Shown: piece after piece, positions 1,898 to 12,373 of the stretch
Layout of the letters: each line of letters opens with the position of its first letter
Numbering within the stretch: the first letter of the stretch is position 1
NCBI GenBank assembly: GCA_016870475.1
Contig: VGBO01000023.1
Span: forward strand, 1-35,342
Source: Actinomycetota bacterium
GTDB taxonomy: Bacteria > Actinomycetota > Acidimicrobiia > Acidimicrobiales > CAIXPF01
Direction: 5' to 3'
Length of the DNA: 35,342 nt
Notes under the pieces: model-generated
Told to the model about the DNA's origin: nothing
Databases searched by the model: none
Seen by the model: only the letters and a program-made list of their open reading frames with translations
Position numbers and translations under genes: made by a program

Positions 1898-2139
1898 AGG
1901 GTGGCCGAACTGCCCCGGCGTGCACGAAGAGCCCCTGTCGTTCTGGCCGGGGGCCGGTGCCATGGGCTGGGGGCGGGGGCCGGAGCGGTCGGTGCCGCAT
2001 GCGCGGCCGCTCGGTCGATGAGCTTGTCGAGCTCACCGCGATCGAGCTACACCCCGCGGCACTTCGGGCAGTAGTCGAACTCGACGCCGCTGCGGTCGGT
2101 CATCACGAGATCGGTGTCGGTGTCGATCGGGAATCTCAC
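1861..2139 (-). pseudogene. zf-TFIIB-like small zinc-binding protein, cut by an in-frame TAG
   Basis: From GTG 2139, with AAAGGAAG about 8 bases upstream, the frame reads 30 residues (RFPIDTDTDLVMTDRSGVEF then DYCPKCRGV), meets TAG at 2047-2049, then continues in frame with LDRGELDKLIDRA. This is the zf-TFIIB pattern, which reads CPKCRGVWLDRGELDKL in the family, so TAG replaces the near-invariant Trp (TGG to TAG is one change). The first conserved Cys of the N-terminal CP(V/I)D motif is also Phe here (TGC to TTC is one change). Beyond about residue 45 the frame is Ala/Pro-rich, lacks the family's usual tail, and ends at a TGA inside the long hairpin. Two lost key residues suggest decay. Such proteins have no well-established function. 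Confidence 0.75.
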
Positions 2140-2180
2140 GGTGGAGACTTCCTTTCGTGGAGGGGACGACAGGATTCAGT

Positions 2181-3173
2181 ATGGCGACGCACGGCCGGGT
2201 AACCGAACGGGATCCGTGGACCTCGGTCGCCGAGGCCGCGGTGTGCGCCGTGCTGGGTGCGGGTGGGCATGCACCCTGCGGTGTGACGGTGCGCGACGTC
2301 CACGTCGCACCCCACCTCCGCTGGGCGTCGTTCGACCACACGCCGTCGGGCGACGTGCTGTGGGCGGCACAGCTCGACGGTTCGGCGCCGGCAGGGTCGC
2401 AGGCGGTCAGCACCGACCTCGGCGACGTCGGCGTGTGGTGGCATCCGAACGACCCGGCTCTCCCGAGCCTGCGGGACGCGGTGACCGAAGGCGGTCTCAC
2501 GGCGGTGGCCGCCGCCCTCGCCTCCGAGATCGACCCACAGGTCGTGCACGTCGTGTCGCTGCAGCCGCTCGAGCACGCCGTCGTCCGTGTCGGCCGGCCC
2601 GGACACGCCGTCTAGGTGAAGGTCGTGCCGCCCTGGCGCGTCGGCGACGTCGCCGACAGGCACCGACGCGGACGCGACGCCGGCCTTCCGGTACCCCGCG
2701 TCCTCCACACCGACGACGTGCGGGGAATCGTCGTGCTGTCGGAGTTGCCGGGGACACCGTTGGCCGAGCATCTCGAGAACGGTCACCCCCTCCCCGATGC
2801 CGACGACGTGTGGTCGCTGATCGAGCGGATCACCGCATCGCTGGGAACACACGGCGACCTCCACGACCGACAAGTCCTCGTCGACCACGACGGGATCGTC
2901 GTCGGCATCGTCGACCTCGACGACACCGGCGACGGCGACCTGCTCGACGACCTCGCTCGGCTCGTCGTGCACGTCAGGACACGGGACGACACGCACCCCG
3001 ATCAGAGGAACCGTGTCCGCACCTTCGCAGACGGACTCGTGTCGATCTTCGAGCAGCACGTCGACGGCGACCATCTCCGTCATCGAATCCGCGCCCACGC
3101 CGACGCCTCGACGGACGTCCGATCGCCGATGGGACCGACGCCGAACCCTAGGCTCGCCCGGTGGACCTCTTGA
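2181..3173 (+). pseudogene. APH-type phosphotransferase, cut by an in-frame TAG
   Basis: From ATG 2181 (AGGA 6 bases upstream) the frame runs 144 residues to TAG at 2613-2615, then goes on in the same frame to TGA 3171-3173, about 330 codons in all. The two parts form one aminoglycoside-phosphotransferase-fold kinase. The first ends with a beta-strand pattern (HAVVRVGRPGHAV). The second opens with VKVVPPWR, the strand holding the ATP-binding Lys, and contains the catalytic loop HGDLHDRQ and the metal-binding IVDLDD. Related proteins have Tyr, Phe or Trp where TAG stands, so TAC to TAG or TGG to TAG is likely. The substrate is unknown. The 3' end overlaps the exchanger start by 13 bases. Alternatives are read-through or a sequencing error. 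Confidence 0.75.
3149..3154 (+). promoter_or_regulatory. -10-like box, leaderless arrangement
   Basis: TAGGCT ends 6 bases before the GTG at 3161, with no Shine-Dalgarno, so transcription could start at or next to the start codon. Confidence 0.45.
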
Positions 3174-9582: not shown

Positions 9583-10899
9583 TCAGATCTGCCAGTAGGT
9601 GGCCCGGCGGTCACGGAACCGACCGGAGAACAGTGAACCCGGGAACTGCTGCATCCGGTCGAGGAGCAGAGCGACCGCGTCGTTGTAGACGGTACGCGCC
9701 GAAGCGATCCGGTGCTCGACGTCGGCGAGCTGCCGTTGCAGTTCGAGCGCGTTCTCGTTCGAGGTCAACGCCGGGTAGCGCTCCGCCAGCGCGGCGAGCA
9801 CCGGGCACACCTCGACGGTCGCGGCCTGGGACGCGACCGATCCGTCGAGCTCGGTTCGCTGCCGGCCGTCCCACCGTGACGCTGCGAGCGCCTCCTGCAC
9901 CGTGCGCTCGTGCGCGAAGGACGCCTCGACCGTCGCCACGAGCTGGGGGACGAGCGTCGCACGGCGGGCGAGCGCCACGTCGACCATCGACCAGCACGCC
10001 TCGACCTGGTTCGCGGTGATCACGATCCGGTTGTACCGGTCGAGCAACCAGCGCGCCATTGCCGTCGTGACCAACGGGACGGTGAGCGCGAGCCCGACGA
10101 CGGGCGGGAACCCGAGCACGGCCGCGACCACGCCGAGCGCCGCTCCCGCCGGCAACGGTGCCCCGAACACCACCAGCGCACCCCGACGGTTCCGCGCCTC
10201 GACCTCGTGCACCGCACCGTGCGCCAGATACAACTCGCCGCGCGAGCCGGCTGCGGGATCGTGCCGGAAGACCGGCATCGCCGGGTTCGCCGGGTCGGGG
10301 AGCACCGGTCCGAGCGCCGTCACCGTGGCGCCGACCGGCAACCACTCCTCGAGCACCCGCCACCGGCCGCGCAGCACACCGATCGGACGGTCCAGTTCGA
10401 ACCCGCGCGCCTCGACTGCGATCTCAGCCGCCTGCATCAGCAGGCCGACCGTCAACTGGTCCTTGTCCCGCGCCTCCGCCGAGAGGCCGTCGACGGTCGC
10501 CGACGCCGGATCGACGAGCACCGCACCCCGGTCGTCGAGGAGGAAGAACCGTCGGGTGCTGCACCCCTCGACCCGGGTGCGCCAGTCACCGTCGCCGTCG
10601 GAGTCCCGCTCGTACTCCTGCATTCGGAACCGGTACCACACGCACGGGCGGCGCCCCACCGTCGACCAACCCTCCGGGACCGCCGTCCGCCCCGAACACT
10701 CCGCCCGACCGAAGGGCACTGCGGACGGCGGCACCGTCGGCGTGTCGGCCATGCGGACCGACCGGCGCCACCGTCGCCAACCGACCGCATACGCAACGCC
10801 GGCGACGAGGCACACCACCACGGCGAACCCGAACCCCGTGGCGTTCGGTGACAACGACTCCTGGGCGAGCAGGGGACCCATGCCCGCGGAGCATGCCAC
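9583..10899 (-). CDS. GIDE-like domain fused to a LemA domain, membrane protein
   Basis: The 438-residue product joins two modules. After a first membrane helix (about 20-42), residues 60-235 resemble the bacterial relatives of the E3 ligase GIDE/MUL1 outer domain: a small-residue-rich start, RPCVWYRFRMQEYERDSDG, then RRFFLLDDRGAVLVDP. There is no RING finger, so no ubiquitin-ligase activity is implied. Two hydrophobic stretches (about 250-290) follow, then a LemA-type core (LDRYNRIVITANQVEACWSM, RRATLVPQLVATVEASFAHE, LTSNENALELQRQLADVEHR) ending FRDRRATYWQI. The start is ATG 10899 or ATG 10881. The gene lies 8 bases upstream of lemA. The fusion suggests the separate LemA protein works with this one. 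Confidence 0.8.
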   Translation of the reverse strand: MACSAGMGPLLAQESLSPNATGFGFAVVVCLVAGVAYAVGWRRWRRSVRMADTPTVPPSAVPFGRAECSGRTAVPEGWSTVGRRPCVWYRFRMQEYERDSDGDGDWRTRVEGCSTRRFFLLDDRGAVLVDPASATVDGLSAEARDKDQLTVGLLMQAAEIAVEARGFELDRPIGVLRGRWRVLEEWLPVGATVTALGPVLPDPANPAMPVFRHDPAAGSRGELYLAHGAVHEVEARNRRGALVVFGAPLPAGAALGVVAAVLGFPPVVGLALTVPLVTTAMARWLLDRYNRIVITANQVEACWSMVDVALARRATLVPQLVATVEASFAHERTVQEALAASRWDGRQRTELDGSVASQAATVEVCPVLAALAERYPALTSNENALELQRQLADVEHRIASARTVYNDAVALLLDRMQQFPGSLFSGRFRDRRATYWQI

Positions 10900-10927
10900 A
10901 GGAACCTCACCGAAGCCGTCGAGAACC

Positions 10928-11716
10928 TCACCCGAAAGCGTCGAACGCGAGCTTCACTGCCAGACCGAGCCCGGCGAGGCCGATCACCACACGCAGACGG
11001 GCCGCCGACACCCGGCGCACGACCGCCGGACCGGCGAGCCCACCGAGCACCGAACCGAGAGCGAGCGGCAACGCAGCCGACCAACGGACCGGACCGAACA
11101 GCGCGAAGCCGACCGCCGCCGTGCCGTTCGCCGCCCCGAGCACCACGTTCTTCGCCGCGTTCGCAACCGGGAGCGCCTCACCGCTCGTGTGGAGCAGCAA
11201 CGCCAGCAGCAGGACACCCGCCCCGGCGCCGAAGTAGCCGCTGTACACCCCGATCGCCGCCACGCCGAACAGGGTGAACCGCCGGACCCGCGGGTCGAGA
11301 CCCGCCGCAGACCGTTCCACCACACGGCCACGCAACAACATCGCCGTCGACCCAACCGCGACCAGGAACGGGACGGCCACCTCGAACGCTGCCGACGGGG
11401 TCCGCAGCAGGAGCACCGCACCCGCCGAACCACCGAGGACCCCCACGGCTGCGAGCGGGACGAGAGTGCGGGCCCTCCCGACGAGCTCCGTGCGCGATCC
11501 CCCCACCGACCCGGCCGTCGACCCGACGAGCGCCACCGTGTTCGTCACGTTCGCCACGACCGGCGGCAACCCGAGAGCGAGCAACGCCGGATACGACACC
11601 AGCGAGGCGAGCCCGGCGACGCTGCCCGTCAGCCCTGCGCCGACCCCGGCAAGGACGAGGAACAGCGGCTGCAGGACTTCGCCCGCGGCGAAGGCGGTCA
11701 CCGCGACGAGGGGCAC
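10928..11716 (-). CDS. TauE/SafE (TSUP) family membrane transporter
   Basis: Members export or import small organic or sulfur anions such as sulfite or sulfoacetate; the cargo here is unknown. The 262-residue product has seven or eight membrane helices arranged as two similar halves, each starting with a Gly-rich segment: GVGAGLTGSVAGLASLVSYP with VANVTNTVAL, and GVYSGYFGAGAGVLLLALLL with ANAAKNVVLGAANGTAAV. GTG 11716 is preferred; a CACTAT box lies 6 bases upstream on this strand, a leaderless arrangement. It is back-to-back with dedA, only 21 bases apart. The next gene on the strand (GIDE-LemA) starts 28 bases after its stop and may be co-transcribed. Confidence 0.88.
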   Translation of the reverse strand: MPLVAVTAFAAGEVLQPLFLVLAGVGAGLTGSVAGLASLVSYPALLALGLPPVVANVTNTVALVGSTAGSVGGSRTELVGRARTLVPLAAVGVLGGSAGAVLLLRTPSAAFEVAVPFLVAVGSTAMLLRGRVVERSAAGLDPRVRRFTLFGVAAIGVYSGYFGAGAGVLLLALLLHTSGEALPVANAAKNVVLGAANGTAAVGFALFGPVRWSAALPLALGSVLGGLAGPAVVRRVSAARLRVVIGLAGLGLAVKLAFDAFG

Positions 11717-11722
11717 ATGGCC

Positions 11723-11729
11723 ATAGTGT
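11723..11729. promoter_or_regulatory. overlapping divergent -10-like boxes
   Basis: On the plus strand TAGTGT (11724-11729) ends 8 bases before the dedA GTG at 11738. On the minus strand CACTAT (11728-11723) ends 6 bases before the TauE GTG at 11716. Both boxes share five bases inside a 21-base gap. Confidence 0.45.
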
Positions 11730-11737
11730 CAGGCACC

Positions 11738-12373
11738 GTGTTCGACGGCCTCACCGACGTGATCACCCGCATCGTCGAAACCCTCGGCGCCGTCGGCGTC
11801 GCCCTCCTCGTCGCCGTCGAGAACGTCTTCCCGCCGATCCCCTCCGAGCTCGTGCTGCCCCTCGCCGGGTTCGTCGCCGGACGCGGTGACGCGTCGCTCA
11901 CGGCGATGCTCATCGGCGCCACGACCGGGTCGGTCGTCGGGGCGTGGATCCTCTACGGGATCGCCGCCTGGATCGGCCACGATCGCCTCCACCGGCTCGT
12001 CCGACGCCACGGCCGGTGGTTCGGGGTCCGTATCGCCGACCTCGAACGGGCGGAGGCGTGGTTCGACCGACGCGCCGCGTCGACCGTGCTGGTCGGCCGC
12101 TGCGTGCCCCTCATCCGGTCGCTCATCTCCGTGCCCGCCGGTTTCCGCCGCATGCCGCTCGGCCGGTTCACCGTCTACACGGCGATCGGCAGCACGATCT
12201 GGAACGGTGCGCTCATCGGCGCCGGTGCGGTGCTCGGCGACCAGTGGGAACGAGTCGGCGGCGTCGTCGAACGATTCCAGTGGGTCGTCGTGGCGTGCAT
12301 CGCCCTCGGAGCGGCGGTCTTCGCCTGGAAGCGGATCCTCTCGCCTCGGCTCCGTCGCACCCCCGACTGCTAG
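11738..12373 (+). CDS. DedA family membrane protein
   Basis: DedA proteins are inner-membrane proteins; studied members act as lipid-carrier or phospholipid translocases and affect envelope stress resistance. The 211-residue product has the conserved ENVFPPIPSELVLPLAG near the start, and the core GRCVPLIRSLISVPAGFRRMPLGRF, with the Arg and Gly residues typical of the re-entrant loop. Three to four membrane helices surround these, with a basic C-terminal end. GTG 11738 is preferred over ATG 11717, because TAGTGT lies 8 bases before it and ATG 11717 would touch the divergent start codon; ATG 11717 does have GAGGGG just upstream. It ends with TAG, 9 bases before the alcohol dehydrogenase gene. 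Confidence 0.9.
   Translation: MFDGLTDVITRIVETLGAVGVALLVAVENVFPPIPSELVLPLAGFVAGRGDASLTAMLIGATTGSVVGAWILYGIAAWIGHDRLHRLVRRHGRWFGVRIADLERAEAWFDRRAASTVLVGRCVPLIRSLISVPAGFRRMPLGRFTVYTAIGSTIWNGALIGAGAVLGDQWERVGGVVERFQWVVVACIALGAAVFAWKRILSPRLRRTPDC

Follow-up and report, generated by a model that had tools for sequence, protein, structure and literature searches.

An in-frame TAG very probably belongs to a set of inactivating lesions in an APH-fold phosphotransferase gene undergoing decay in an Actinomycetota bacterium

What does an in-frame TAG just before the ATP-binding lysine of an APH-type kinase mean: a sequencing error, a recoded codon, a gene split in two or a gene that is being lost? The question is raised by a 35,342-nucleotide stretch, referred to here as the window, which is the entire contig VGBO01000023.1 of an Actinomycetota bacterium assembly of 116 contigs (2.45 Mb, 98.7% complete) and has a GC content of ∼72%. 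A first-pass annotation had proposed one recent substitution in an otherwise normal gene. Our reading, with a probability of about 0.9, is that the TAG is one lesion among several that inactivate an APH-fold phosphotransferase gene now in decay. No paper on this locus was among those listed by a literature search.

The frame opens with a first GTG at 2157, followed by the ATG at 2181, and the TAG was confirmed to be in frame with the codons on both sides. Relatives of the kinase were sought in 59 genomes including its own, seven of which matched, again counting its own; of the six other genomes, G035 matched only weakly and does not enter the family alignments. In each of the remaining five relatives a single unbroken frame of 426 to 468 codons runs across the TAG site. 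A contig search with the 185-amino-acid downstream part of the kinase as the query gave no matches, and one with an alignment of the five relatives as the query gave 140 relatives, the best 80 of which were kept. Among these are Acidimicrobiia, a large number of other Actinobacteria and a small number of Chloroflexi-type assemblies. Before alignment, five of the 80 whose matched stretch has a stop at residue 376 or beyond were removed and two loci (L011 and L012) were brought in, so that 77 stop-free relatives were aligned with the window kinase; a structure alignment took 34 of the 80 loci. The column of the TAG holds Phe in 58 of the 77 relatives and Tyr in another 18, the last one having Leu, and the conserved lysine of VKVV lies two codons past it, so the proposal that the TAG takes the place of an aromatic residue beside VKVV holds. 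So does the proposal of a formerly single gene: the first pass had named two separate genes split at this position in sister genomes as a result that would count against it, and none of the relatives compared, which are only ∼30 to 37% identical to the window kinase, is split there. The features of the locus are collected in Table 1.

Table 1. Coordinates in the window of the features of the kinase gene and its divergent neighbour
Feature	Position	Strand	Basis or remark
Degraded TFIIB-type zinc-ribbon gene (PF13453), divergent neighbour	2011..2130	-	Only match to PF13453 in the assembly
Second in-frame TAG	2047..2049	-	Trp/Phe position of the CRGV(W/F)LD motif
Degraded APH-like phosphotransferase gene (probable pseudogene), read-through frame	2181..3173	+	ATG 2181 to TGA 3171-3173; relatives, Pfam, alignment
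In-frame TAG	2613..2615	+	Column Phe/Tyr in 76/77 relatives; corresponds to Tyr155 on strand 153-158 of the L063 model
Codon for conserved Lys	2619..2621	+	Lys in 76/77 relatives
Junction of in-frame deletion, 48 well-occupied columns	2841..2846	+	Corresponds to L063 residues 232-282, two helices before the catalytic loop
Catalytic-loop motif HGDLHDRQ, retained	2850..2873	+	Translation, alignment, mapping on the L063 model
Eroded C-terminus	3084..3170	+	Conserved LATGPFR..W..T stretch of relatives not recognisable

Actinobacteria commonly carry the family of APH-fold phosphotransferases to which the gene belongs. All five intact relatives that were scanned match PF01636, and the actinobacterial subfamily has ∼400 amino acids with an N-terminal extension, placing ∼140 residues before the APH match. 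The usual APH loop reads HGDxxxxN, with an asparagine, while the subfamily has HGDxxxxQ, with the glutamine present in 77 of 77 aligned relatives. A predicted structure of an intact relative, L063 (mean pLDDT of 95; the window protein itself was not the one modelled), resembles the structures of MphH, APH(4)-Ia, APH(3′) and methylthioribose kinase. Matches to the NCBIfam resistance models fall far below the cut-offs (17 versus 205 bits, for example).

Like PF01636 proteins, the window copy keeps the catalytic motifs, as the first pass had stated for the catalytic loop: both HGDLHDRQ and VDLDD are found in its translation, and in the alignment of 77 relatives it retains the residue at each of the conserved K, H, G, D, Q, D and D positions. 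Unlike the intact members, it has a stop before the lysine, has lost the segment ahead of the loop and has no conserved C-terminus. The description of both sides of the TAG as together making one APH-fold protein was therefore not borne out. The TAG interrupts any continuous frame through the N-lobe and C-lobe, and the PF01636 match of the window protein (34 to 37 bits against a curated cut-off of 23.2) is limited to the C-lobe, at profile positions from ∼147 or 150 to 224 of 239. The 48-column gap sits directly before the catalytic loop, whereas the longest internal gap in any of the 77 relatives is 14 columns; the same alignment has a second window gap of 11 columns near the N-terminus. In the L063 model, the missing residues (232-282) contain the helices 242-255 and 257-272.

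The extent of the damage can be read from the 54 columns that are conserved in at least 90% of the relatives, of which the window keeps 35 (65%), compared to a leave-one-out median of 98% among the relatives themselves, the two lowest values being 82% and 75%, the latter from L099, which has 11 gapped columns. The losses fall mainly in the YRPxRRA stretch at residues 130-153, a degraded motif with three of seven conserved columns kept, in the deleted segment (none of two) and at the C-terminus (3 of 11). We also read the other forward frames of the tail by eye for a frameshift that might hide the C-terminus, and found no LATGPF-like stretch. A single substitution, offered earlier as a sufficient explanation, thus leaves the 48-column deletion, the 11-column gap, the degraded YRPxRRA, the eroded C-terminus and a low codon bias unaccounted for.

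The claim of a single substitution is further undercut by the adjacent gene, which is also broken. This divergent neighbour resembles the TFIIB-type zinc-ribbon family in matching 34 of the 41 profile positions of PF13453, and differs from its members in carrying a TAG at a position that is Trp or Phe in all nine of the best-scoring other matches to the profile and a Phe in place of the first cysteine of the ribbon, a Cys in 9/9 of the same matches (weaker, partial matches were left out of this comparison). Its TAG lies 564 bases from that of the kinase. The codon score of the zinc-ribbon gene is normal, at the 55th percentile, which speaks against decay, and bias alone could therefore not have exposed the damage. 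A motif search for a PF13453-like motif in the kinase regions of five relatives did not find one, and a Pfam scan for a shared neighbourhood, covering ten neighbouring ORFs in seven of the eight relatives listed, found only a response regulator in two, the neighbours being the longest ORFs and so possibly including false genes.

Codon usage was scored with a home-made model, built without homology on 435 kb of the organism's own genome (20 stretches plus the window); it gave 401 called genes, some of which are probably wrong, as minus-strand calls at 9583-11716 overlap a Pfam-matching ORF at 10880-12373. Per codon, the read-through kinase ranks near the 2nd percentile among the 347 called genes that reach 150 amino acids, the score over its last 60 codons is negative, and the part from 2616 to 2990 reaches about the 11th percentile; these values do not bear out the reported normal codon bias. 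Nor does the open frame carry much information at ∼72% GC, because the antisense frame of 2157-3173 runs for 339 codons without a stop and another forward frame goes 330 codons without one. Within the 435 kb, 43 stops are flanked on either side by 50 codons of coding-like sequence. The idea of a recent event, drawn from preserved bias, is not supported, because the codon score is low and open frames arise by chance, and further lesions are seen. The lack of frameshifts and the survival of the catalytic motifs argue nevertheless that decay is not far advanced.

Could the TAG be a base-calling or assembly error, the organism having a sense codon there? Even though the window is one contig of a fragmented assembly, the 48-column deletion and the eroded C-terminus are independent of that base, and a second TAG stands 564 bases off in another conserved gene, where paired single-base errors at adjacent conserved sites would be unlikely. 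We regard this explanation as improbable, although it survives better than the others.

It is less probable still that a suppressor tRNA, pyrrolysine or reassignment lets the TAG be read as an amino acid, aromatic or otherwise, with both neighbouring genes giving full proteins. The position of both TAGs at conserved aromatic sites of adjacent genes would suit such decoding. TAG is nevertheless an ordinary stop in this genome: it terminates 43 of the 401 called genes, including those before SecD, SecG and the ATP-synthase delta subunit, and it separates different Pfam proteins in the pairs YajC/SecD, TIM/SecG and ATP-synthase b/delta. Twelve other TAGs with coding-like flanks were tried, 11 of which had Pfam matches, and in none of the 11 does a domain span the TAG. 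The organism's own genome has no PylS above the cut-off (best match, 19.6 bits versus 178), and a pattern scan for an amber-suppressor tRNA found none, the sole tRNA-like match with a CTA loop being tRNA-Arg(TCT); the pattern covers canonical T-loops only and would miss unusual tRNAs. The further lesions in both genes also count against decoding. TAG recoding was rejected on its terminal use, the lack of a PylS above the cut-off and the lack of an amber tRNA in the pattern scan. A conditional variant, in which aromatic amber read-through of both TAGs would produce a zinc-ribbon protein along with a kinase of reduced length, we hold to be just as remote.

Two short proteins, one ending at the TAG and the second restarting at the GTG at 2616, are equally hard to credit: the GTG follows the TAG immediately, 2616-3173 is open for 185 codons and the catalytic and metal-binding motifs are conserved in this part, but its product would have little of the N-lobe, would miss the helices that precede the catalytic loop and would end in an eroded C-terminus, no ribosome-binding site is evident by eye before 2616, open frames of such length are common here by chance and none of the aligned relatives is split.

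Decay of the gene remains the best explanation. The kinase carries inactivating lesions that are absent from its relatives, distant as these are. Bacterial pseudogenes arising from nonsense mutation and deletion form a general class, whose premature stop, partial deletion, eroded end and broken neighbour are all shared by the window locus, and no observed feature sets the window kinase apart from it. Some observations speak against decay. The gene shows no frameshift, and past each gap the homology picks up again without a change of frame, which weighs little with only two sizeable internal gaps; the K, HGD...Q and DLD residues survive; and residues 154-229 (9/9 conserved columns) and 231-290 (13/16) are well kept. 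Translation would stop ahead of the ATP-binding lysine, and therefore no working kinase would be made; the gene also lacks the helices that lead up to the catalytic loop, as well as its conserved C-terminal signature. Decay may have been too little advanced to have left frameshifts.

Elsewhere in the window, a tmRNA gene at 671-1059 is followed by a lower-GC stretch at 1060-1950 (0.61 to 0.66 compared to ∼0.72 for the window), possibly an inserted segment. One unassigned ORF on its minus strand (1087-1785) has a second copy, 44% identical, on another contig (C3), and of 58 other relatives only 4 gave hits to it. Between the low-GC stretch and the zinc-ribbon remnant sits an inverted repeat at 1848-1904, with 27 bases, 89% complementarity and 3 bases between the arms.

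The best reading of the locus is that of two adjacent decaying genes, a kinase and a zinc ribbon, in a comparatively small genome. Selection would have been lost on both genes in a lineage whose genome, at 2.45 Mb, is smaller than those of five members of the kinase family (3.1 to 5.9 Mb), a size that would fit the loss of dispensable genes. At 72% GC, an open frame says little in favour of a recent nonsense mutation, and it is alignment with relatives that reveals the additional lesions. For annotation, the finding means that pseudogene is the proper label for both neighbouring genes, rather than short protein or recoded kinase, and it means little beyond that.
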